DNA from: Candidatus Kapaibacterium sp.
Lineage (GTDB): Bacteria; Bacteroidota; Ignavibacteria; Kapaibacteriales; Kapaibacteriaceae
Direction of reading: 5' to 3'
Assembly (NCBI GenBank): GCA_018882895.1
Contig: VERF01000001.1
Coordinates: 91,286-134,504, forward strand
Length of the DNA stretch: 43,219 bases
The notes under the pieces are model-generated. The model searched no databases and was not told the DNA's origin. It was given only the letters and a program-made list of their open reading frames with translations. Of this stretch, positions 6,228-29,892 are shown piece after piece (positions within the stretch are counted from its first letter, which is position 1; each line of letters begins with the position of its first letter). A program made the translations under genes and the position numbers.

Positions 6228-6929
6228 ATGCGGATTCTAGTTATCGAAGACGAGCGCAAGGTCGCCAGCTTCATCCGGCGGGGTCTCGAAGAAGAACGCT
6301 ACATCGTTGAGACCGCCTCAGACGGTGAAGCAGGGCTCAACATGGCTCTGAACAACGTGTTCGATGCGATCGTGCTCGACGTGATGTTGCCGAAGCTTGA
6401 TGGCTACAGTGTGCTTCGATCCATCCGCCAGGAAGGCCTGGCGGTGCCGGTGATCATGCTCACTGCACGCGGTACGACAGAGGACAGAGTGCAAGGATTG
6501 GATCTGGGTGCCGACGACTACCTGGCAAAGCCGTTTCACTTCGAGGAGTTAGCTGCCCGGCTGCGATCGATCTTGCGGCGGTCAACCAGTGAAAAGACCA
6601 CCAAGCTTCAGTGCGGAGACCTTACGTTGGATCTGGTGACGCACTATGCGTTCCGAGATGACAAAGAGATCGAGCTTACGACCAAGGAATACGCACTGCT
6701 CGAATACATGATGCGCAACAAGGATCGCATCCTTTCCCGTTCCATGATCATGCAGCATGTGTGGAAGCATGATTTTGACCCTGAGTCGAACATCATCGAC
6801 GTATACATCAAGCGTGTCCGGCAGAAGATCGAACGGCCGGGGCAGTCTCAACTGATCCATAGTATCCGCGGTGTTGGCTATCGCATGAGAGAATCGGCAC
6901 CATCGGAAGGGAACGACATTGATGAATGA
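6228..6929 (+). CDS. OmpR/PhoB-family response regulator
   Basis: MRILVIEDERKVASFIRRGLEEERYIVETASDGEAGL...DVMLPKLDGYSVLRSIR...LTARG...GADDYLAKPFHFEELAARLRSILRR, C-terminal winged helix; start trimmed to 6228. Confidence 0.95.
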   Translation: MRILVIEDERKVASFIRRGLEEERYIVETASDGEAGLNMALNNVFDAIVLDVMLPKLDGYSVLRSIRQEGLAVPVIMLTARGTTEDRVQGLDLGADDYLAKPFHFEELAARLRSILRRSTSEKTTKLQCGDLTLDLVTHYAFRDDKEIELTTKEYALLEYMMRNKDRILSRSMIMQHVWKHDFDPESNIIDVYIKRVRQKIERPGQSQLIHSIRGVGYRMRESAPSEGNDIDE

Positions 6930-7254
6930 AACGATACATCCTCTGTGCGTGCATCTCTCGCAGGAGGTCAAGAGCGGTGTCGGCCCTGTGCAGAGAGCAT
7001 TCGACGCCTATCAGCAAGAGTGTTTCATTGAGCGTCCGGGTGAGTTCTTCTCACTTGAACTCTGTGGTGAGGCCGGCGAGCTGGCAAACCTGGAAAAGAA
7101 GCGTTGGAAGGGTAACGAGATCCCTCATGACCGACTTGCCGATGAGGCAGCCGATGTGTTCATCGCATTGATGAACTACGCCAATGCGCGAGACATTGAT
7201 CTGGCTTCAGCAGTTTGCGAAAAGCTCACGCGAATCCGTCCATCTCGACCCTGA
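6919..7254 (+). CDS. MazG-like nucleotide pyrophosphohydrolase
   Basis: LELCGEAGELANLEKKRWKGNEIPHDRLADEAADVFIALMNYANARDIDL, typical EExxE...ExxD MazG-like pattern; overlaps the preceding gene end. Confidence 0.8.
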   Translation: MMNETIHPLCVHLSQEVKSGVGPVQRAFDAYQQECFIERPGEFFSLELCGEAGELANLEKKRWKGNEIPHDRLADEAADVFIALMNYANARDIDLASAVCEKLTRIRPSRP

Positions 7255-7264
7255 AATCAGAACC

Positions 7265-7302
7265 AACAACGAAAAACGGCCCAGGGCATCTGCCCAAGGC
7301 CG
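7265..7302 (-). terminator. Rho-independent terminator for rpmG (minus strand)
   Basis: CGGCC-CA-GGGCA-TC-TGCCC-AA-GGCCG stem, followed on the minus strand by TTTTTC; lies between convergent mazG-like and rpmG ends. Confidence 0.7.
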
Positions 7303-7364
7303 CTTCTTGATTTTCAGTTTGCAGTCCGATCTGTAGCGAACAGGAACAGACGCTGTCAGGGGGC

Positions 7365-7544
7365 TTACCGAATCTCGCGGTGAACCGTGTGCCGACGAAG
7401 AAACGGATTGTACTTCTTCAGCTCGAGACGCTCAGTGGTGGTCTGCTTGTTCTTCATCGTTGTGTAGCGTGAGGCCGGCTTTCCTTCCTTCTTCGCTTCC
7501 GTGCATTCGAGCGTGATGATCACGCGGGCGCCCTTCTTTGCCAT
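7365..7544 (-). CDS. rpmG: 50S ribosomal protein L33
   Basis: [61 protein letters not shown]-like AAGGAGA upstream. Confidence 0.95.
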
Positions 7545-7620
7545 TTCAATTCTCCTTCGGTTCTCGCTGCTGCATGGCATGCAACAACGGTATGTCATTC
7601 ATTGTGATTGGGATAGACTC

Positions 7621-7628
7621 CAAAGTTA
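7621..7628 (-). promoter_or_regulatory. Bacteroidota-type -7 element TAACTTTG upstream of rpmG
   Basis: CAAAGTTA on + is TAACTTTG on -, matching TAnnTTTG, about 77 nt upstream of the rpmG start. Confidence 0.5.
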
Positions 7629-7654
7629 CGGTCATGCCGAAGCATTTCCAAACG

Positions 7655-10150
7655 TCAGTTTGCCGCAGTATGAGCAGTTCGGAGTGTCGCTCGCGAAGAT
7701 CTCGGCGACTTCGGAGGATCGACGAACGCAATCTTCACGGCCTCATCGGCGTGAGAAACAAAGACGATCTTGAGACCACGCGTAACCTCAGCTTGAAGTT
7801 CCTCGACATCCTTTCGGTTTTCGGCAGGCACCAGCACGATAGTCATGCCGGCCCTGCGCGCGGCCAGCAGCTTCTCGTTCAGGCCTCCGATGGCCAGCAC
7901 ATTACCACGCAGTGTTACCTCACCGGTCATAGCCACATCTCCTCTGAGCTCGCGTCCGGTGGCTGCCGACAGAAGTGCCATGGTCATTGTGATTCCTGCC
8001 GACGGACCGTCCTTTGGTATCGCACCCTCCGGAACATGGATGTGGATCTGTCGATCCTTCGCGAACATCTCGTCAAGACCGAAACGACTGTGGTTGCTGC
8101 GCAAATAGGACAGAGCGGCCATGGCCGACTCCTTCATGACTTCGCCGAGTTTGCCGGTAAGTGTCAGACGTTCCGCTCCAGGCATCATGGTCACCTCTAC
8201 GGGGAGAGTGTCGCCGCCCATTGACGTCCAGGCAAGCCCCATGGCCACACCGATCTTGTTGCTGAGTTCCTCTGGCTTGACCTTGAACTTTGGAGCTCGC
8301 AGGAATCCCTCGACACTCTTCTCGTCGATGACCCAGCGTTTGTTCTTTGCAATTGACTGGAACGTGCGTGACGAGCGCATCTCGCCACCAACAGCGGTCT
8401 TGGAGCGCTTGCCGACAGTGTCGACGATATCGACGGCGAGCTTCCGAAGAATGCTGGCGACCTCGCGCTCAAGGTTTCGCACACCGGCCTCTCGCGTGTA
8501 CTCGCGAACAAGTTTGCCCAATGCTCCTTCGGTGAAGGTAATGTCCAGCCCCTGCAGCCCGTGTTTCTCCAGGAGTTTCGGCACGATGTAGCGCTGTGCG
8601 ATCTGAACCTTATCCGGCTCGAGGTAACTCGACAATTCGATCACCTCAAGACGATCCAGCAGGGGAGCCGGGATATCGTACTTGACGTTGGCAGTTGCGA
8701 TGAACAGGACATTCGAAAGATCGTAGTCCACCTCAAGATAGTGATCGCTGAAAGTGGCGTTCTGTTCCGGGTCGAGCACCTCAAGAAGCGCAGAGCTTGG
8801 ATCTCCTCTGAAGTCCATAGACATCTTGTCTATCTCATCAAGAAGGATAACCGGATTGTTGCTTCCGGCTCGCTTCATTGCCTGAATGATCTTGCCCGGC
8901 ATCGCGCCTATGTATGTTCGGCGATGTCCACGGATCTCAGCCTCGTCGCGCACGCCACCGAGCGACAATCGGACGAAGTTCCGACCAAGTGCGCGGGCGA
9001 TGGACTTGGCAAGTGATGTCTTGCCCACACCAGGCGGACCGACCAGACATAAGATCTGACCGCGAACGGAGCCAACGAGGTTCAGAACCGAGATATACTC
9101 CAGAATCCGCTCTTTGGGCTTCTTCAGGTCGTAGTGGTCCTGGTCGAGAATCGTTCGTACATGGTTGAGTTGAAGATTGTCGACCGTTCGATCTTGCCAT
9201 GGCACTGTGGCGATCCATTCGAGCCACGTACGATTGACCCCGTATTCGGGTGACATCGACGGGGTGCGTTTGAGACGATCGAATTCTTCGCTGACCTTTA
9301 CGCGAACCGGTTCGGGCAATTCCACCATCGAGAGTTGATCGTTGAGCTTCGACAGCTCAGGTCCGCCGTCATCGTCTTCACCCAGCTCAGACTGCAGAGC
9401 ACGGATCTGCTCTTGTATGAAGTACTTCCGCTGTGACTTCTGGATCTGGTCCTGAACCTTGCTGTCAATCTCGACTTCAAGTCGAAGCAGCTCGATCTCT
9501 GCAGAAAGAAGCTGCACCAACTCGTAGAACTGATCCTTTACCGATGGTGCGTCGAGTATGCGTTGCTTGGCTTCAACCTTTTGAGGAATGTTTGCGGCCG
9601 CGTAGTAAAGTTTGCGGATCGGGTCTTCAAGATTCTGAAAGGCGCCAAGCACCTCTGGTGGCAAGTTCCGGTTGCCCTTGACGAACTCCTCAAACAATTC
9701 GGTAGCGTGACGCACCAGCGCGGCAAGGTTGCGGTCATTCATGTCGGCATGAACCGGCAAGGGAGAGATCTCTACTTCCAGATACGGTTCCGTGCGAACA
9801 GCATTCGTGATGCGGGCAGGTACCGTGCCTTCGACCAGTACCTTCAGCAGGTTGTTCGGCAGGCGCATCACCTGAAGGATCTTGGCAACAGTCCCAACAG
9901 AATGCACGTCGTCGATCGTGGCGTCTTCGGTTGACGGATGGCGTTGTGAGACGACAAGGATGAACTTGTCCCGCTCCATTGCCTCTGCCACAGCCTTCAG
10001 AGAAGACGACCGTCCGATCAGTACCGGAAAGATCATGTGGGGGTAAATGACAATATCGCGCAACGGCAACACCGGGAGGCGCTCCAAAGCGGGGTTGTTC
10101 TGCCGATCTGCCTGTTCGATTGAGTCGAGGACGTCTGATTGGTCGTTCAT
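7655..10150 (-). CDS. lon: ATP-dependent protease Lon
   Basis: Full-length: LPVLPLRDIVIYPHMIFPVLIGR, LVGPPGVGKTSLAKSIARALGR, VILLDEIDKM, PKDGPSAGITMTMALLSAATGRELRGDVAMTGEVTLRGNVLAIGGLNEKLLAA. Confidence 0.98.
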   Translation of the reverse strand: MNDQSDVLDSIEQADRQNNPALERLPVLPLRDIVIYPHMIFPVLIGRSSSLKAVAEAMERDKFILVVSQRHPSTEDATIDDVHSVGTVAKILQVMRLPNNLLKVLVEGTVPARITNAVRTEPYLEVEISPLPVHADMNDRNLAALVRHATELFEEFVKGNRNLPPEVLGAFQNLEDPIRKLYYAAANIPQKVEAKQRILDAPSVKDQFYELVQLLSAEIELLRLEVEIDSKVQDQIQKSQRKYFIQEQIRALQSELGEDDDGGPELSKLNDQLSMVELPEPVRVKVSEEFDRLKRTPSMSPEYGVNRTWLEWIATVPWQDRTVDNLQLNHVRTILDQDHYDLKKPKERILEYISVLNLVGSVRGQILCLVGPPGVGKTSLAKSIARALGRNFVRLSLGGVRDEAEIRGHRRTYIGAMPGKIIQAMKRAGSNNPVILLDEIDKMSMDFRGDPSSALLEVLDPEQNATFSDHYLEVDYDLSNVLFIATANVKYDIPAPLLDRLEVIELSSYLEPDKVQIAQRYIVPKLLEKHGLQGLDITFTEGALGKLVREYTREAGVRNLEREVASILRKLAVDIVDTVGKRSKTAVGGEMRSSRTFQSIAKNKRWVIDEKSVEGFLRAPKFKVKPEELSNKIGVAMGLAWTSMGGDTLPVEVTMMPGAERLTLTGKLGEVMKESAMAALSYLRSNHSRFGLDEMFAKDRQIHIHVPEGAIPKDGPSAGITMTMALLSAATGRELRGDVAMTGEVTLRGNVLAIGGLNEKLLAARRAGMTIVLVPAENRKDVEELQAEVTRGLKIVFVSHADEAVKIAFVDPPKSPRSSRATLRTAHTAAN

Positions 10151-19165: not shown

Positions 19166-20242
19166 CTATGGTGTGTGCTGTCCGAATGTTCGGCTCAGTA
19201 CCCCCGACATGAGCTGAACGATGTTGATCATTCTACCGTAGTCCATCCTTCGAGGACCGATCACGCCGAGCGTGCCGCGGGCTGTGCCAGCTCTGTAGGT
19301 GGATGTCACCAGAGAGTAGTCACGAAGTTCGACGTTTGGCATCTCATTTCCGATGCGGACCGTGATTCCCTCGGTGCCTGATGAGGAACCGAGAAGGTGC
19401 ACAATGACGTCTTCGTTTTCGATCAATTCAATGATGGTGCGCAACCTCTCGGGAGAGTCATGATGTGGCTGTGCAATCAGATTCGTGGCACCAGACACAT
19501 GCACGGTGGAGCCATCATTGGTAACGTCGATACTTCCGATCTGGTCAACGAACAGTCGCAGCAGGGAAGATTCGATCGCGTGTGGGGAAGCCCCCTCAGA
19601 GAGAAGCTCTGTGACATCTGCCAAGGGGCGACCATGGAGCCGCTCGTTCAGATATCTTCCGATCTCCTGGATAGACTCAAGTTCAACGGCTGTGCGGGTC
19701 TCCAGACTCACCGTTCGTACAAGTTCACTGTCAAGATCAATGATGACAACAAACCGTTCGCTGCTAAGCGCAACGATCTCGACGCGCCGCACTCGTGCTT
19801 GCCGAACCGTCGGCAATTGAACAATGGCCAAATGTCGGCTGAGTGATCCCAGGATTCTGGTCGCATCCTTTACCACGCTTTCGCGCGGAGTGTTCAGCAG
19901 ATCCGCCACGGCGGCATCAGCCGATTGCAGCTCTGCCGGAAACGGGAGCGGCTGCGATTCGATCAGAGAGTCGACGTAAAACCTGTACCCAAGATCGGTA
20001 GGCAGTCGGCCGGCAGATGTGTGTGGATGGGTGATGTAACCCATCATCTCAAGATCGGCCATAGTGTTGCGGATCGTTGCCGGACTCAGTGGCATCGTTC
20101 GCGATAGGAACGAGGACAGGACGCGCGAACCAACCGGCATTCCGCCGAGGATATAAAGGTGTACCACGGCCTGCAGGATCGTGCGTTCACGCTCGCTGAG
20201 GTCCCGCTGTGGGGTCGAAAGGTATTGTCCCGGCGCGATCAT
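19166..20242 (-). CDS. hrcA: heat-inducible transcription repressor HrcA
   Basis: LSERERTILQAVVHLYILGGMPVGSRVLSSFLSRTMPLSPATIRNTMADLEMMGYITHPHTSAGRLPTDLGYRFYVD; C-term GVIGPRRMDYGRMI. Confidence 0.96.
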   Translation of the reverse strand: MIAPGQYLSTPQRDLSERERTILQAVVHLYILGGMPVGSRVLSSFLSRTMPLSPATIRNTMADLEMMGYITHPHTSAGRLPTDLGYRFYVDSLIESQPLPFPAELQSADAAVADLLNTPRESVVKDATRILGSLSRHLAIVQLPTVRQARVRRVEIVALSSERFVVIIDLDSELVRTVSLETRTAVELESIQEIGRYLNERLHGRPLADVTELLSEGASPHAIESSLLRLFVDQIGSIDVTNDGSTVHVSGATNLIAQPHHDSPERLRTIIELIENEDVIVHLLGSSSGTEGITVRIGNEMPNVELRDYSLVTSTYRAGTARGTLGVIGPRRMDYGRMINIVQLMSGVLSRTFGQHTP

Positions 20243-20249
20243 GTATTCA

Positions 20250-22859
20250 TCAGCCGACGTACATGTAATGCGTCAGGAACGAAAAGCCGTGGTTCGTGAA
20301 GTCGAGAGACAACACAGCCGCCGCGACAACGATGATCAACAGACACAGGCCAATGAGATAGACCACCGAAGGACGTACGTCAAATACCACACTCGTGGCT
20401 CGGAGCATCCTCAGCATAACCCAAATCGAAACCATGAATACGGTTAGCGGAACCATCAGAGATAGCTCGTTGTCCGAAAGCGCCTGGTACAGGGCGATGC
20501 CGATCGGAAGCATGATGATGTAGGGCAGTCCCGACCACGTGACAATTGTGAATGTGTCTCGGATGCTGATGCGACTTCTAACGAAAGCAGCCCCCGTGCG
20601 GAGCGCCACACTCAGGAGTCCGAGCCAGATCAAAACGGCGGTAGACCATGCCAACGTAGATAACTCAGGATGCCAAGCGACGTAGCGAAGTGCCGAATAG
20701 AGGGAATCACTCGGCAACAGGATGTGAAGAATGCTCTCAACGTTTGGGTTGACGCGCACAAAGTATAGGAACGACGCAATTACAAGTCCGACTCCGCCAG
20801 AGATCACGCCGGCAAGCACACCTGTCTGCGCTGTTGACAGGATGCGTTGATCGCGAATGTCTGCGTAGAAATTGTAGGGTCGTACCAGTGCCCTGAGGAA
20901 GTACTCTCTGAAACGCCGTGATCTGTTGGCAACGAGTGCCAGCATGATTGCCAGCAAAACACCACCGGCGATGAAGACGATTGGTGTGGTGAAGCCGATG
21001 TCACGGGCCTGCAAGAGGGGGAGCTTCTCGTCGTTGATCAGTGCCTTGTACATTTCAAACGACACTCGTCGCTGGCGATAAGCATCAACCAAACCGGAAG
21101 TACACAGCAGAGGATCGTAATGATCGACAAGCATCGTCGCGCGTTCAAGTCGATAATCATTGAATGACCAAACGAGCATTCCTGCAAGCTGGGCAGATGT
21201 GGCCCACGTGTAGTACTTACTGATAAGAAGAGCCTGCGCCTCGTTCGATAGTTGATCACTGAAGCCGTTCGTGTTCTGGGGTGAGACGCGACTCCCAAAC
21301 TGGGCCAGAACTGCCGCCGATGTAAAGATCGCTTGGTCGCGTCGTCGCAGCAGCATCATTGCTGAGCTGTCAGCAAGGGAGGCGAAGTTGACGATGATAA
21401 AGTCGAAGCCCCCTTCACTTGCAAGACTCAGCTGCCTTGATGAAATGGTCTTGAAAACCAGCTTTGATGACATCCGCCTCGTATATCGAGCCATCTCTTC
21501 ATGATAGCGCGTCACTTCTGACGACTGCTCGTCGAGGCCATCGCTCAATCCGATGCCAAGCACCGACGGGTGGGGGTCCAGATACGAAAGGGTCCGCTCG
21601 GCACTATTTCGAAGGCGAGTCGACAGTTCAGCTTCACCAAGCACATCTGCTGGGATGTCCGAGCACGGCAGATCAGCAAGGACCATGATGCCATATCGGT
21701 CGCACAACGACAGGAAGACCGGATGTGGGCTACCGTGTGTGATCCGAACAGCATTGACGCCGAGTGTCTTCATGAGCGTCACGTCATACTGCATCTGCCC
21801 GACTGATAGTGCGGGTCCGCGTTCGGGTGCGTCTTCTATGTAATCGACGGCATGTACCCGAATGGCAGTATCATTGACAATGAAACGCCTGCTGCCATCG
21901 ACCATGCCTATGGCGATTGAACGGAATCCGAATGGTTGGCGGAAAACATCAACCAACATGCCATCGACGATGACGCGGATCTCGAGGTCGTAGAGATTCG
22001 GACTGCTCGGACTCCATAGTCGTGCGCCCGGAACGCTGAGGCTCATGGTCGGAGTAACCTCGCGAGCGCGACCGATCTGGGATGTCTGAGCACCCGTCGA
22101 ACTGATCACGATGCCGCTCCTCTGGTCGACGATCCGGGCTTCCACACCGAAACTGAGGTTGCTGCTCGTGTTAAACTCGTCTGATTGGCCTTGCACTTGA
22201 CGTAGCTTTTCGATCATTCCGCTCATGATCCTGGCTGAAACACTCAACTGCCCGGTGCCATTCTGGACGTTCGTGCGAAGACGCACGCTTTCGGTCCAGA
22301 TATGCGGTGTCCCGACAAGAAATACTTCGCGAAGAATTCCCAAGTACTGCTTCGGAGCAGCTCTGCCATTGCGCTGAACGTTTGCCGCAAGTTGGCTGGT
22401 CGGAAGGATATTGAGTTCAATGGTGTTCGATCCCGGACGAAGGATTCCGTCTCGTATGCGGATGGCAAATGGGATCATTCCACCCGGGTACTGCATGATG
22501 AAACGACCATTGACGGTCAGTTCGACCGCATCGGCCATGCCAAAAAACTGGAGGTGCCAGGAGTTGCGCGCAAGGATAGCACTGTCAATACGCAAAGCTC
22601 TGCGGAGTCTGACCGGCTCGTTTCCGCCCAAGTCACCCGGAACAGTAGCAGTTCCTGTTGCGACCCCGTCCTCAATCAGCTGCCACTGACCCCCAAGATC
22701 ATAAACTTTTCGTGTCTCGCTGGCCGTGAAAGGGGCTGATTCCTGTACGGTAATGGCACCGATCAGGCCGGTGGGCATGAGACAGATGGCAAGCAGCAGA
22801 AAGGCGAATCGTCCCGCCATTTCCGCGGTGCGCTGTGTGTGGTTCATAGAGCGATGCAA
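20250..22859 (-). CDS. GH2-fold (beta-galactosidase-like) protein fused to C-terminal multi-TM Yip1-like domain; probable pseudoenzyme
   Basis: Signal-like N-terminus, sugar-binding and barrel region (LMKTLGVNAVRITHGSPHPVFLSLCDRYGIMVLADLP, HPSVLGIGLSDGLDE), then about 6 hydrophobic segments from VFIAGGVLLAIMLALVA onward. Confidence 0.8.
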   Translation of the reverse strand: MHRSMNHTQRTAEMAGRFAFLLLAICLMPTGLIGAITVQESAPFTASETRKVYDLGGQWQLIEDGVATGTATVPGDLGGNEPVRLRRALRIDSAILARNSWHLQFFGMADAVELTVNGRFIMQYPGGMIPFAIRIRDGILRPGSNTIELNILPTSQLAANVQRNGRAAPKQYLGILREVFLVGTPHIWTESVRLRTNVQNGTGQLSVSARIMSGMIEKLRQVQGQSDEFNTSSNLSFGVEARIVDQRSGIVISSTGAQTSQIGRAREVTPTMSLSVPGARLWSPSSPNLYDLEIRVIVDGMLVDVFRQPFGFRSIAIGMVDGSRRFIVNDTAIRVHAVDYIEDAPERGPALSVGQMQYDVTLMKTLGVNAVRITHGSPHPVFLSLCDRYGIMVLADLPCSDIPADVLGEAELSTRLRNSAERTLSYLDPHPSVLGIGLSDGLDEQSSEVTRYHEEMARYTRRMSSKLVFKTISSRQLSLASEGGFDFIIVNFASLADSSAMMLLRRRDQAIFTSAAVLAQFGSRVSPQNTNGFSDQLSNEAQALLISKYYTWATSAQLAGMLVWSFNDYRLERATMLVDHYDPLLCTSGLVDAYRQRRVSFEMYKALINDEKLPLLQARDIGFTTPIVFIAGGVLLAIMLALVANRSRRFREYFLRALVRPYNFYADIRDQRILSTAQTGVLAGVISGGVGLVIASFLYFVRVNPNVESILHILLPSDSLYSALRYVAWHPELSTLAWSTAVLIWLGLLSVALRTGAAFVRSRISIRDTFTIVTWSGLPYIIMLPIGIALYQALSDNELSLMVPLTVFMVSIWVMLRMLRATSVVFDVRPSVVYLIGLCLLIIVVAAAVLSLDFTNHGFSFLTHYMYVG

Positions 22860-23079: not shown

Positions 23080-26000
23080 GTGTTCGCGATTTCCCGACGA
23101 ACGTGGATAACACTGCTGTGCGCGTTTAGCGTCATTGCGGCTGGCCCAACATGCCTGCTAGCGGAGGTGTCACTTCTGCCTTGGCTGGCCGAGAGCGAGC
23201 CGCTGCACGTTGGTGCACTTCAGTTGACCACAACCCTTCTTGGGTCGCTCTTGCGGATGAAGCCGCAGGACACGACGCGTCGCGACACGCTCCCCAAGGG
23301 GCCGGAAGGTATCGGAGATCCCACCAACACGGACTATCCAGGATACTTTCCGGATGTCTTTATAAACCGATTCGGACTGACATCCCCTCAAAGATCCTAC
23401 CGATACATACGGCCACCGAAGGGATATACGATGCGGGGCGGGGTCGACACTTTGGGGTCGGCAATTACACTCCGTGAGATCACCGATGGCTCCGACGTTG
23501 GAACGACCGTACCTCTTTCACTCGAGGCATACCTAGATCAGCGGCGAGAGCAGCTCCTTCGGAAAGCACGCGACTCGGCGCTTTTGAAGTACGAGATGAA
23601 GAAGCCCCTTACGGCGGCAGAGCTCACCAAGCTCATCGACCAGGCAACAAACATCACGATCCCACTTCCGCAGAACCCGCTCTTCGGCATCTTCGGTAAG
23701 CCCGAGATCTCGATCAATGTCAATGGTGAAGTCAACATTCAGGCAGGTTGGCGCTGGGATGCCCAGTCGCTTGGTACTGCCTCGATCGCCGGACAGAACC
23801 AGTCGGCCCCGATCTTCAATCAGAACATCCAGGTCAACGTCAGCGGCCGAATCGGTGACAAGCTTCGCATGAACGTCGACTGGAACACACTCAACCAGTT
23901 CGAGTTCAACAATCGTTTCAAGATCGGTTTTGAAGGCAACGACGACGATATCATCAAGCGTGTTGAATTCGGTAATGTAAACCTCGAATCACAAAGCGCG
24001 CTGATCGGTGGTGGACAGACGCTTTTCGGAGTGAGAGCCGATTTCCAGTTCGGCCCCTTGTTCATAAAGACCATTGCGTCCCAACGCAGAGGGGAGCGCC
24101 AGTTCATCAATGCCCGAGGCGGTTCGTCGCGTCAGCAGTTCACCATCCGAGCCTACGATTACGCCAAGAATCACTTCTTTATCGACACTTCGTATTTCGC
24201 AGTTTGGAAAGATTATTTCCGCACTGCAACACCCGCCCTGTCGAAGGTCGGTGCGCAGCTCGTTGTCAAAGAGATCGAGATCTGGGAGTCCACCACAGAC
24301 CTTCGAGAAGTGCAGGCCAACGAGGCTGTTGCCTATGCGGACCTTCCATCGATTCGATACGTTGCCGGAGATCGATATTCCGCAGCTCTCACCCAGGCAG
24401 AGATCAAGGCCGGTATTGTTGAAAGGGGGCGATTCATTCGTCTTGATTCGCGCCGGTACGACGTTGATCTCAATCTCGGAACAGTATCGGTGCTAAACCT
24501 TCGGAACGACCGTTATTACGCCGTCTCCTATCGCGTCGAAGGACCAACCACCTCAGATGCTGATGATGAGTACGTCGGGACGCTTTCACGTAATGCCAAT
24601 GAACGCGACACCATCCTGCTGAAACTCATTGCGAGGCCTCAGATGCAGCCGGGCTTCCGTGCAATCTGGAAGCGCATGATGCGGAATCGTTACCCAATCG
24701 GCGTTCCGAATATCAATGCCCAGGATGCTCGCCTCGGGATGTGGTACTACAGGTCGACGAATGACTCTGCAGACGTCATCGACGGCGCTCAGGATAAGAT
24801 TGTTACGATCTTCCGCGTCGACCAGGTCAACAATGGTACCGGTGTAGAGCCCCCTGACGGGGTGTTTGACCCACGACCTCCGATCTTTAATTCACAGCGT
24901 GGTGAGATCACCTTCCCGAGCCTTGAACCGTTCAGGGAGGGATTGCGTGATTACTTCGCCGCAAAGGGTAATGCTCAGCTTGCCGAGCAATACGTCTTCA
25001 ATGAAGTCTACGACACTACCGATATCGCCGCCCGGCTGGTCTCGGCTAAAGACCGCTTTCTGATCGTTGGCGAAGCAACAGGCACTTCAATGGGCAGTCG
25101 TATTCCACTTGCGTATCAGCTGGCGCCGGGAAGTGTTCGTGTGACGCTCGACGGAGTAGCCCTACGCGAAGGTGTCGACTTCATGGTTGACTACAATAGT
25201 GGAACGCTCTCGATGCTCAACCCGAGGGCGCAGCTGCCGAACGCAAATCTCAATGTTGAATTCGAGAAGAATGATCTTTTCAACCTGACGACGCGCACGC
25301 TTCTTGGAATGCGCGCCGATATGCGCCTTTTCACGAAACGTCGGATGAACGGGTCCATCGGAATGACAATGATGAACTACGATCAAGCTGCGATCGTAGA
25401 CCGCGTGCTGCCGGGTCAGGAGCCCAATGCGAACTTCATGTTCGGCCTAGACGCGCGTTTCAATGCCGAACTCCCTTGGCTGACAGATGCACTGAACTTC
25501 ATCCCGGGGGTCGATACCAAGGAGAAGTCGACGTTTGCCTTTAACGGCGAATGGGCGATGGTTTCGCCAACTCCGAACAAGCGTTTTTCAACGGTTTCCA
25601 GTGACGGCGGCAAGGCTGTGGCCTATGTTGATGATTTCGAATCAGCCCGACGCTACCTCGGTTTTGGCCTCACTCCCACTACGTGGCAGCACTCATCTGC
25701 CTCCAAGGATTCCACGCTCTGGGATAGCGATACCACGGCCCAGAAGTTCCGTGGAAAGGTCTTCTGGTTTCAGAAGTTCGTCCCAGATGTTCCCCAAGTT
25801 GACGTCTATCCGAATCGTGCGCAGGTTCAAGGCCGCAACAACATCAACCCGCTTCGAATCGTGTTCGCCCCTGATGAGCGCGGTATTCACAACCCGAACT
25901 CTGAGTTCATTGATCCTCAGAACCCTGAGTGGAACGGGCCGGATAGTCTTTCGGTGCGGCAGCGTGCTTCTGAATTCCAGGGGGCGAATCGTCAGCGCAT

Positions 26001-29000
26001 ATGGGGAGGTCTGACGAGGCTGCTCTCGCCGTTCAACACGAACTTCGATAATGAGAACATCGATTTCATCGAAGTGATGATGCGCATCGAAGGATATGAA
26101 CCCGGTTCGAGAATGTTCATCGATCTCGGGCAGATCAGCGAAGACATCATTCCCAATCAGGGCCTCAACACCGAAGATCGGCCACCGGCAAACAACCTTG
26201 TCGACCTAGGTGAAGACACAGGACTTGACGGACTCACGGATGAGCAGGAGAAATCGGCATATCCGGCACCGCTCAATCAGGAAGCTGACCCGGCGCGCGA
26301 CAACTATTTCTTTGATTTCACTAGCAACCGGAACAATCAGACAGAAGAGCAATTCCGTCGCTACAACAACTACGAGGGCAATGCCACGCAGTCCGAGTTC
26401 GGCCAATTCCCCGATACCGAGGTGCTGAATCGTAACAATGGTCAGACCATCTCGCTCGACAACAGCTATTTCCGCTACGAGGTCAAGCTGATCCCGAATC
26501 CTTCTCTGAATGCTCAGATCGTTGGCGGAAACCCGGCAAGCGGCTGGTATCAGTTTCGTATCCCGGTTCGGCGCCCTGATTCAATTGTGGGCAACCCGCT
26601 GTTCACCAACATCCAGTACGCACGGATCCACTTCCAAGGCGGAAGCGTAAAGGTATCCATCGCCGACTGGGGCGTTGTCGGATCATTCTGGCTCCGAAAT
26701 CATCAGTTCCAGTCCGGTGTCGATCAGACCGACACCGTCATCCAAGTGGCCTACGTTAACCGTGAAGAAAATCAGGATGCTCCGGATTTCTACACCATGC
26801 CCCCCGGAGTAAGAGCTCCTCAGCAGCTGCAGAATCCGGATCCGTACCAACTGCTTTACCTAAATGAGCAAGCACTTGTGGTTCGGACGCGGAACTTGAG
26901 AGCAGGGGAGGAACGCTTTACTGCTCGAATATTCAGGCCGTGGGACCTCTTCTTTTACAAGCAGCTGGCCTTTTTCATACATGGTGATAACACCATGCCC
27001 TCAACTGTCAGTGAGGGGGCTACTCCGACAGCCTATTGCTTTATCCGATTCGGCATCGATTCGGCCAATTACTATGAATTCCGCCGCCCGATGATACGGG
27101 GCTGGCAGGATCTGCGCATTCGCATTGAAGACCTTACGGCCATCAAGGAGATCAGGGATAAGTCGAGAGTGACCCATCGGCAGGAATTCCCCGTTCCGGG
27201 AGACCCACAAGGTGTCTTTGCAATCAAGGGTAACCCTATCATGACGCGGATATCGTTCTTCGGGTTCGGAATTGCCAATCCCGCGGAACGTTATCCGAAT
27301 GAGCTGTCCACCACAATGTGGGTCAATGAACTACGTGCCGTCGAGCCGGCGGCCGACAACGATTGGGCGGCCATAGGAAATGCGACATTGAAACTTGCCG
27401 ACATCGGAGATATAACAACTGCTGTCAATACGACGACCCCGAACTTCCATCGCCTGGAGGAACGCTTCGGTAATCGTATGCACTCGACCACATGGACGAC
27501 GACGGTGCAGCTGGGCCTTGAAAGGCTTCTTCCGAAGAGTCTTCGTGAAACTCGCATCCCGATCAGTTACACCCACGCGGAAATCAGTGAAACACCGCAG
27601 TTCCAAGCACAGAACGACGTCGTCCTTGAAACCGCAGCTCTGGCGGCCGCTCGCGACACCGCCAGAAAGGGAGCCTCGGAAGATGTTGCAAATCAGGTTG
27701 CCGAAGAGGTTCGGCGTCGGTCGCAGCGTGTGCGGGTGCAAGACCAGTGGGCATTGAACGGCCTGCGACTCGGCATCCCCGTCAAGGCGTGGTACATTGA
27801 TGACACCTTCAACAAGCTGACGTTCAATTTTTCATACAGTCAGGAGTTTGAGCGCTCGCAGGTTGTGCAGCAGCGTTTCGATTGGCGTTGGCGATTTAAG
27901 ATGGACTATGCTGTAAACATTGCGCCTAAGCTCTCGGTCTCGCCTTTGAAGTTCCTCACCGATATCTGGGCATTGAAAGCATACAAGGATGCCAAGATCA
28001 ACTTCCTGCCGCAGTCACTCAATGCCAGTATCAACATGACGCGGGCACGCACCACGGAGCAGTCACGGTTCCTGGTGCAGGCAAGCCCCATCATTCGGGA
28101 ATTCATCGCCGAGAAGTCACTCGGATTCAACTGGCGATTTGTCGAGAATGGATTCCTGAGCCCAACGCTTGATTACAAGGTCATGTCCATGTCGACCATG
28201 GTGCCATTTGAGCTCGATGAAAATGGACGTCAGCGCACAGCATCTCAGTTGACGTCGCAGATCTTCGGCGGACAGGGCAGTGTTCTCAACTTCGGAAGTA
28301 TCAGCAACTACAATCAGAACGTTACCCTGTCGTTTCGACCGCGTCTGCCCGACATCGGGGGCTTGAATCGATTCCTCGAAACATCCAGTTCCTACACGGC
28401 CAACTTCACTCTCTTCGACCCACTGCAGGCCGACACTTCGCTGAGAGATGTCGTGCGGGAGGGCCGCTATACGGCCACATTCCGCCTTAGTCCTGTGCTT
28501 CGCTGGCGTCAGCTCGGCAATGAGATCTTCGGAACGCCTCCGAAGGATGGTGGTGGTATCGGGCGGATCTTCCAGGAGATCTTCTTTGGATTTGAGAATC
28601 TCACCACCACGTTCAATCAGGGCACCAATGCTATCAACAAGGGTGTTTTGGGACAGTCAGGATTCGGAAACCTCTGGTCACGTACAGTGCTCTTCCGTGA
28701 CAATGATCCGTCACTTGGGCCCAGTGCGGCCTACCAGCTTGGACTTGTTTCGAATCCGCACGGAGAAGTATCAATCGAGCCATCATCGAGCTTCCCATTC
28801 TTCCGTCTTACGAGTGCTCCGGGTATTCGGCCGGCCAACGCTGTCATGCAGGACGATTACTCACAGAAGAACACACTCCAGCTCCAGACCAGCCGGCCCC
28901 TGTGGCCCGGCGCTACGCTCGATCTAACGATGCGCACCGACGTTGGATTTACCCGTAATCAGCGCGTTGAGACCGATGCGGCCGGCATACCGACATTCAC

Positions 29001-29892
29001 CAATGTTGTCAAGCGTCAGACGCTCGATAGGACGTTCATCAGCTTTCCTGATCTGCCCTTCGGGCTCTCGAATGATAACGTTGAGAACGTCATTCGACTC
29101 TACAATGAGCGCAAGACCACCATCCTGGCAAATCCTGATACCACGAACCGCAACTCACAGCTCCTTAATGCTTTGGCCGATGCATTCCGTGAAGGATTTG
29201 AATCCTGGCAGTTCTTCAGTGGGGAGATCGCTCGAGCTATTCCAGCGCTCAACTGGACTCTGCGTTGGGATGGTATTGAAAAGCTCCCACTTTTCAAGGG
29301 GCTGGCGCAGCGTGTCTTCCTTGAGCACGCATATCAGTCCAATTACACCGAGAATGCCCGCACCAATGACAATGGCCGCTTTGTAGAAGTGCAACAGGTG
29401 AAGTCCGGCTTCACACCGCTGGTCGGATTGAACCTCAGCTTTGACGAGCGTAAGCTCAACGGCCTGCTGACGGCGACGGCCCGCTACAGCGTGACCACGA
29501 CGCATGGATTCAATGCTTCGGCACGCGCCGTGATCTCGCAGGAAACATCCCATGAGTTTCAGATCCAGGCCTCATACCTGCGTCGTAACGTTCCGATCAA
29601 ACTGCTGGGTATGGACCTGAACAACGACCTCGAGCTGACATTCAATACGCAGGTGAGAAAGAACCGCCGCGGACAGTTCGACGTACTCAACTACAAACCG
29701 GGCGGTGCGGTGGTTGATGGCACCACACAGATCGTTGTCGAGCCCCGAGCTCGATACACTCTTAGCGAGCGCGTCACCGCTTCTGCCTTCTTCAAATACG
29801 AAGGAAACTTCAGTGAAGGGGCGGCTAATCCGGGGTTCAGTACCACGCAAGTGGGGGTGGACATACGACTGTCCATCTCCGGCGGAAGGTAG
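23080..29892 (+). CDS. sprA: type IX secretion outer-membrane translocon protein SprA
   Basis: 2270 aa; signal peptide; DVFINRFGLTSPQRSYRYIRPPKGY, PQNPLFGIFGKPEISINVNGEVNIQAGWRWDAQSL, repeated beta-strand-rich blocks; size and motifs as in SprA. GTG start. Confidence 0.93.
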   Translation: MFAISRRTWITLLCAFSVIAAGPTCLLAEVSLLPWLAESEPLHVGALQLTTTLLGSLLRMKPQDTTRRDTLPKGPEGIGDPTNTDYPGYFPDVFINRFGLTSPQRSYRYIRPPKGYTMRGGVDTLGSAITLREITDGSDVGTTVPLSLEAYLDQRREQLLRKARDSALLKYEMKKPLTAAELTKLIDQATNITIPLPQNPLFGIFGKPEISINVNGEVNIQAGWRWDAQSLGTASIAGQNQSAPIFNQNIQVNVSGRIGDKLRMNVDWNTLNQFEFNNRFKIGFEGNDDDIIKRVEFGNVNLESQSALIGGGQTLFGVRADFQFGPLFIKTIASQRRGERQFINARGGSSRQQFTIRAYDYAKNHFFIDTSYFAVWKDYFRTATPALSKVGAQLVVKEIEIWESTTDLREVQANEAVAYADLPSIRYVAGDRYSAALTQAEIKAGIVERGRFIRLDSRRYDVDLNLGTVSVLNLRNDRYYAVSYRVEGPTTSDADDEYVGTLSRNANERDTILLKLIARPQMQPGFRAIWKRMMRNRYPIGVPNINAQDARLGMWYYRSTNDSADVIDGAQDKIVTIFRVDQVNNGTGVEPPDGVFDPRPPIFNSQRGEITFPSLEPFREGLRDYFAAKGNAQLAEQYVFNEVYDTTDIAARLVSAKDRFLIVGEATGTSMGSRIPLAYQLAPGSVRVTLDGVALREGVDFMVDYNSGTLSMLNPRAQLPNANLNVEFEKNDLFNLTTRTLLGMRADMRLFTKRRMNGSIGMTMMNYDQAAIVDRVLPGQEPNANFMFGLDARFNAELPWLTDALNFIPGVDTKEKSTFAFNGEWAMVSPTPNKRFSTVSSDGGKAVAYVDDFESARRYLGFGLTPTTWQHSSASKDSTLWDSDTTAQKFRGKVFWFQKFVPDVPQVDVYPNRAQVQGRNNINPLRIVFAPDERGIHNPNSEFIDPQNPEWNGPDSLSVRQRASEFQGANRQRIWGGLTRLLSPFNTNFDNENIDFIEVMMRIEGYEPGSRMFIDLGQISEDIIPNQGLNTEDRPPANNLVDLGEDTGLDGLTDEQEKSAYPAPLNQEADPARDNYFFDFTSNRNNQTEEQFRRYNNYEGNATQSEFGQFPDTEVLNRNNGQTISLDNSYFRYEVKLIPNPSLNAQIVGGNPASGWYQFRIPVRRPDSIVGNPLFTNIQYARIHFQGGSVKVSIADWGVVGSFWLRNHQFQSGVDQTDTVIQVAYVNREENQDAPDFYTMPPGVRAPQQLQNPDPYQLLYLNEQALVVRTRNLRAGEERFTARIFRPWDLFFYKQLAFFIHGDNTMPSTVSEGATPTAYCFIRFGIDSANYYEFRRPMIRGWQDLRIRIEDLTAIKEIRDKSRVTHRQEFPVPGDPQGVFAIKGNPIMTRISFFGFGIANPAERYPNELSTTMWVNELRAVEPAADNDWAAIGNATLKLADIGDITTAVNTTTPNFHRLEERFGNRMHSTTWTTTVQLGLERLLPKSLRETRIPISYTHAEISETPQFQAQNDVVLETAALAAARDTARKGASEDVANQVAEEVRRRSQRVRVQDQWALNGLRLGIPVKAWYIDDTFNKLTFNFSYSQEFERSQVVQQRFDWRWRFKMDYAVNIAPKLSVSPLKFLTDIWALKAYKDAKINFLPQSLNASINMTRARTTEQSRFLVQASPIIREFIAEKSLGFNWRFVENGFLSPTLDYKVMSMSTMVPFELDENGRQRTASQLTSQIFGGQGSVLNFGSISNYNQNVTLSFRPRLPDIGGLNRFLETSSSYTANFTLFDPLQADTSLRDVVREGRYTATFRLSPVLRWRQLGNEIFGTPPKDGGGIGRIFQEIFFGFENLTTTFNQGTNAINKGVLGQSGFGNLWSRTVLFRDNDPSLGPSAAYQLGLVSNPHGEVSIEPSSSFPFFRLTSAPGIRPANAVMQDDYSQKNTLQLQTSRPLWPGATLDLTMRTDVGFTRNQRVETDAAGIPTFTNVVKRQTLDRTFISFPDLPFGLSNDNVENVIRLYNERKTTILANPDTTNRNSQLLNALADAFREGFESWQFFSGEIARAIPALNWTLRWDGIEKLPLFKGLAQRVFLEHAYQSNYTENARTNDNGRFVEVQQVKSGFTPLVGLNLSFDERKLNGLLTATARYSVTTTHGFNASARAVISQETSHEFQIQASYLRRNVPIKLLGMDLNNDLELTFNTQVRKNRRGQFDVLNYKPGGAVVDGTTQIVVEPRARYTLSERVTASAFFKYEGNFSEGAANPGFSTTQVGVDIRLSISGGR

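Follow-up and report, generated by a model that had tools for sequence, protein, structure and literature searches.

The closest described relatives of the protein studied here are the GH2 enzymes, namely the beta-galacturonidase and beta-glucuronidase group (6ncw, 8dhe, E. coli GUS and LacZ), with which it shares the three-domain GH2 fold. In contrast to these enzymes, the family of the window (i.e., of the whole 43,219-nucleotide stretch of DNA that was analysed) does not keep the two catalytic Glu residues as a pair, is fused to a six-helix membrane domain, and is encoded by a single-copy core gene. The membrane domain has a weak to moderate profile likeness to the Yip1 family (PF04893; yeast Yip1p, archaeal arCOG02054, PMC5898192), although Yip1 proteins have about four or five transmembrane (TM) helices, whereas the window protein has six, plus the fused ectodomain. 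A further likeness, in manner of working, is to the catalytically inactive LytM regulators EnvC and DipM (PMC10336132, PMC8416486), which also combine a dead periplasmic hydrolase fold with a division context; DipM and other inactive LytM proteins set a precedent, in that a hydrolase fold without activity regulates the wall enzymes acting at division (PMC10336132). However, the two folds are unrelated (GH2, not LytM, and no Pfam match to a LytM domain was found in the window protein), the present family is integral to the membrane, and the regulation of hydrolases carries over by analogy only. Components of the SprA/type 9 secretion system (T9SS) are neighbours of the gene in the window's family, but this linkage is absent elsewhere, and the gene is not required for SprA to be present. 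Our literature search found no paper joining a Yip1 domain, a glycoside hydrolase and Bacteroidetes; the 'Yip1' of the PSP paper refers to HAAS domains, and the M. roseus genome paper leaves GH2 unmentioned in its main text.

Gene and domain organization

The gene occupies positions 20250..22859 of the minus strand as an open reading frame of 869 amino acids, recognized by its Pfam domains and its orthologues, and we consider it real because single-copy orthologues were retrieved from 59 of 60 relatives; the named matches are Candidatus Kapaibacterium and Ignavibacteria. The start codon of the frame is TTG, and a start a few codons further in, at about Met14, suits the signal peptide better. 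The latter, at residues about 14-36 (22752..22820, minus strand, as are all features of this gene), is marked by a hydrophobic core in the aligned family and by a low-confidence helix at residues 8-32 in the AF2 model. It is followed by a jelly-roll domain of the sugar-binding type at residues 50-190 (22290..22712; PF02837, GH2_N, E 2.6e-4), an Ig-like domain at residues 191-313 (21921..22289; PF00703, E 1.6e-10) and a TIM barrel at residues 314-618 (21006..21920; PF02836, GH2_C, E 4e-13); PF02837 was matched in 34, and PF00703 in all, of the 41 family members. Residues 627-869 (20253..20981) make up the six-helix Yip1-like membrane domain, as judged from AF2 and hydropathy.

The AF2 model of the 869-residue protein, for which 41 orthologues served as input, had a mean pLDDT of 90.1 and a pTM of 0.86. 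When it was searched with Foldseek, the whole GH2 part matched the beta-galacturonidase 6ncw with an E value of 9e-36 and a TM-score, by target length, of 0.86. The earlier note on this DNA had described a GH2 sugar-binding and TIM-barrel protein, to be overlaid on LacZ and GUS, and both the Pfam domain set and the fit to this GUS/LacZ-type structure bear it out.

Catalytic positions of the GH2-fold ectodomain

In the window protein, the region of the acid/base motif reads HPSVLGIGLSDG and that of the nucleophile motif reads LAQFGS. To place these residues, 128 non-redundant orthologues were aligned with 15 ordinary GH2 sequences, of which 13 carry the standard motifs. All 13 put the acid/base Glu in one column and the nucleophile Glu in another, and these columns are occupied in the window protein by Gly441 (21537..21539) and Gln520 (21300..21302), respectively. 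Among the orthologues, Glu is found in the acid/base column in 14/128 (11%), in the nucleophile column in 22/128 (17%), and in both in a single one (L063, family f23), leaving 127/128 without the pair. The other residues of the active site followed the same trend: the His is present in 12/13 canonical GH2 sequences versus 14% of the orthologues, and the Asn in 13/13 versus 6%. The structural residues W59, N117, G174, W282, D359, R372, D486, D568 and G589, on the other hand, are 91-100% conserved. Since the active-site columns are relaxed while the structural residues are kept, the function under selection would not be hydrolysis.

In a tree from which the two catalytic Glu columns were excluded, the orthologues group in a single clade that is separate from the canonical GH2 sequences, with at least seven changes of state at one Glu site and nine at the other. 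Judged from these alignments, the ectodomain is a dead enzyme whose catalytic residues were lost long ago and throughout the family. The possibility that other acidic residues fill both catalytic places was rejected, as the alignment leaves no doubt about the two columns and shows no pair of conserved acidic residues in place of the lost Glu. According to the earlier note, homologues with intact motifs would mean that the decay was recent; a single Glu is indeed kept in scattered lineages, and both in L063, but the loss extends over the family, which rules out recent decay of an ordinary GH2. The central claim of that note, a membrane-anchored GH2-fold pseudoenzyme, thus held up, with Gly441 and Gln520 in the catalytic columns, six TM helices, and the Glu losses shared among homologues, and we regard a family-wide pseudoenzyme of this fold on a membrane domain as virtually certain. 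It is to be noted that the exceptional genome (G123; loci L063 and L195) has the motifs WGIGNEF and ITEYGK, with both catalytic Glu in place.

Membrane domain, reduced forms and distribution

By AF2 and hydropathy, all six TM helices lie after residue 627, in agreement with the roughly six hydrophobic segments noted before, and the membrane domain modelled by itself reached a pLDDT of 90.5. The Yip1-like ending that had also been noted was recovered, albeit below the Pfam cut-off in the window protein (PF04893, E 0.003; 17.9 bits against a cut-off of 28.6); the profile matched 17 of the 41 members at E<=0.01, the best at 1e-8, and the stand-alone membrane protein of family f19 scored 32.8 bits, i.e., above the cut-off. 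A structure search of the PDB with the membrane domain retrieved no fold relative (best E 1.0). Cytochrome oxidase subunit 2 was dropped as a candidate relative, the matches being in sequence only (E 0.009) and looking like chance similarity of TM helices. The most conserved stretch of the entire protein is the cytosolic, Arg/Asp-rich loop between TM1 and TM2, SRRFREYFLRALVRPYNFYADIRDQRILS (20835..20921), placed by its conservation and the positive-inside rule; its pattern, RRFRExxxRALxRPYNFYADIRDQRILS, averages 3.17 bits per column, compared with 1.5-1.95 in the other mature domains. This loop contains seven Lys/Arg residues versus two in the next, periplasmic loop, a bias that agrees with a periplasmic location of the ectodomain.

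Profiles of the membrane domain (A2, A3) allowed reduced forms of the protein to be found. In families f34, f39, f44, f51-f55, f57, f60, f61, f64 and f65, the open frames are shortened to 500-690 amino acids, and those that were read consist of a signal peptide, the barrel and the membrane domain, the jelly-roll/Ig part being absent. Five of these forms were tested against Pfam, and none matched any family; nonetheless, the shortened barrel aligned to the barrel of the window family with an HHalign E value of 8e-36, as opposed to 1e-14 for ordinary GH2, and none of 17 aligned shortened barrels had Glu at either catalytic site. Family f34 is probably Rhodothermaceae, and for the other families with reduced forms we infer the label 'Rhodothermia-type'. 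The reduction goes further in f19, where genus g52 has the membrane domain only (about 260 amino acids) and genera g58, g75, g89 and g93 appear to lack the gene altogether, so that the gene can apparently be lost. Four f19 genomes that are more than 90% complete (G077, G112, G119, G130) gave neither the full protein nor the membrane domain, while a sister genus keeps the latter. Taken with the conservation of the loop, this series of domain reductions suggests that the membrane domain and its loop are the conserved working core, to which the GH2 fold would be an accessory, free to drift or disappear.

In the class as a whole, orthologues were found in 378/391 genomes and in 330/338 good genomes, f19 being counted by the membrane domain alone. 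Beyond the class, the full-length protein was found in f32, f35, f50 and f62. No match to the membrane-domain profile was obtained in the listed genomes of f33, f36, f37, f38 and f41, which we take to be Bacteroidia and Chlorobia, and the absence from Bacteroidia-type families implies that division in general does not need the protein. Almost every bacterium of the deep Bacteroidota branches keeps it, and nearly all genomes in several classes retain it in single copy. It has been hidden by automatic names, because the Rhodothermia form has no Pfam match and the Ignavibacteria form reads as an ordinary beta-galactosidase. Two peculiarities were encountered in this survey. In G024, a genome of the window's order that consists of one contig, the orthologue (L193, about 6500-9000) is broken over several frames, which could reflect sequencing error or real decay, and contigs labelled 'Bradyrhizobiaceae bacterium' (L086) and 'Armatimonadetes bacterium' (L140) carry a gene of the Kapaibacteria/Ignavibacteria type and are probably mislabelled MAGs.

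Gene neighbourhoods and possible roles

In the window, hrcA (19166..20242, minus strand) lies 7 nt downstream of the gene, with grpE, dnaJ and a comEA-like gene after it, and sprA (23080..29892, plus strand) diverges from the gene; these neighbours are lineage-specific. Members of the window's family have hrcA-grpE-dnaJ behind the gene, which within the order moves among several neighbourhoods. Conserved linkage to genes of division and segregation was found beyond the order. The smc gene is directly 3' on the same strand at 49 loci, and in 40/41 distinct genomes outside the window's order (18/19 in L049-L070 minus L050, L064 and L065; 20/20 in L151-L170; plus L186 and L194). As these include ten out-of-class genomes, smc is the likely ancestral neighbour of the full-length form; the membrane-domain-only gene of f19 still precedes it. 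Of the 26 Rhodothermia-type loci, 14 have ftsZ immediately 5' of the gene and in the same orientation; they represent five families (f34, f51, f55, f61, f64), with murC and ftsA upstream; the gap between ftsZ and the gene ranges from -4 (in the stop-to-stop frame) to 235 nt, and is about 930 nt in f34.

These two separate sets of neighbours, smc and ftsZ, suggest that the protein may take part in segregating chromosomes, in dividing the cell or in building its wall. Our preferred reading, plausible enough to put forward but held tentatively, is that deep-branching Bacteroidota share a core protein of the inner membrane which acts together with the cell-cycle and envelope machinery, its pseudo-glycosidase ectodomain serving as a non-catalytic binding module. 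The essential part would be the six-helix membrane domain with its Arg/Asp-rich cytosolic loop, the latter coupled to FtsZ or SMC partners in the cytosol; the dead periplasmic ectodomain may bind an envelope glycan, such as the nascent septal wall, or a periplasmic partner, and the protein could in this way couple periplasm and cytosol, with ligand binding and transmembrane signalling as its putative activities. A bolder version, which we offer more speculatively, is an unrecognised core cell-cycle family of the non-Bacteroidia Bacteroidota, in which the Yip1-like domain acts with FtsZ and/or SMC, the pseudo-glycosidase reads the septal wall, and the enzyme part was trimmed in some lineages. 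If the smc and ftsZ neighbourhoods mean what they suggest, the protein would fill a gap in the division or segregation apparatus of deep-branching Bacteroidota, and the family would clearly exemplify how an enzyme fold is made non-catalytic and then discarded stepwise. According to PMC5822342, Rhodothermus marinus has been genetically modified before, which should make the role testable there.

Against the cell-cycle reading, adjacency to essential genes can reflect an inherited operon structure with no shared function, and in the genome that contains the window both smc (contigs C87, C3) and ftsZ (C19) lie apart from the gene. A rival reading is a general envelope protein, engaged for example in the assembly of lipid A/LPS, of surface polysaccharide or of the outer membrane; its neighbours would then be no more than stable housekeeping clusters. 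In several families, lpxB-lpxK are found beyond smc at a distance of 4-7 kb, which would fit such a protein, as would the linkage to hrcA/dnaJ seen in the family of the window and, near one Rhodothermia-type locus (L190), MlaC next to a gene weakly similar to a sugar-nucleotide transferase; the latter gene (L190:9569-10549, and equivalents) is convergent and comes after the ftsZ-linked gene in most Rhodothermia-type loci. The nearest partner, however, is smc or ftsZ and no envelope-synthesis gene, and unrelated lineages have arrived at cell-cycle partners, which leaves a general envelope protein possible but on the unlikely side. We find it very improbable that the protein is a signalling receptor whose glycan-sensing ectodomain relays through the loop to a cytosolic partner unrelated to division: the ectodomain and the conserved cytosolic loop speak for one, yet the f19 protein is a membrane domain without any sensor, and no signalling gene was found adjoining. 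Catalysis by relocated residues, or processing of glycans by another mechanism, could be argued from the survival of a single Glu in scattered lineages and of both in L063, and from the conservation of D359, R372, D486 and D568 in the barrel. Canonical GH2 sequences, however, share these four residues as invariant positions, the lost Glu are not made up for by another pair of conserved acidic residues, and the barrel is trimmed in the Rhodothermia-type relatives and absent in f19; an active enzyme is thus very unlikely.

The earlier note had also suggested a possible tie of the protein to SprA and the T9SS from its divergence from sprA, an arrangement indeed seen in all loci of the window's family that were examined and in some relatives in its order. 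SprA is present in 388/391 genomes of the class, including every one more than 90% complete, and at that completeness the gene never occurs without SprA. The converse does not hold, as f19 genomes lacking the gene retain SprA; in complete genomes of other orders (G158, G163) the gene and sprA are megabases apart, and the neighbour elsewhere is smc or ftsZ. A T9SS accessory as the general role is therefore rejected by synteny and the SprA survey, and a gliding or T9SS accessory working with SprA appears very unlikely, the adjacency being confined to the family of the window and a handful of its relatives. Finally, one sprA match in the surveyed genomes (G179:C10:17110-23460) contains seven in-frame stops.
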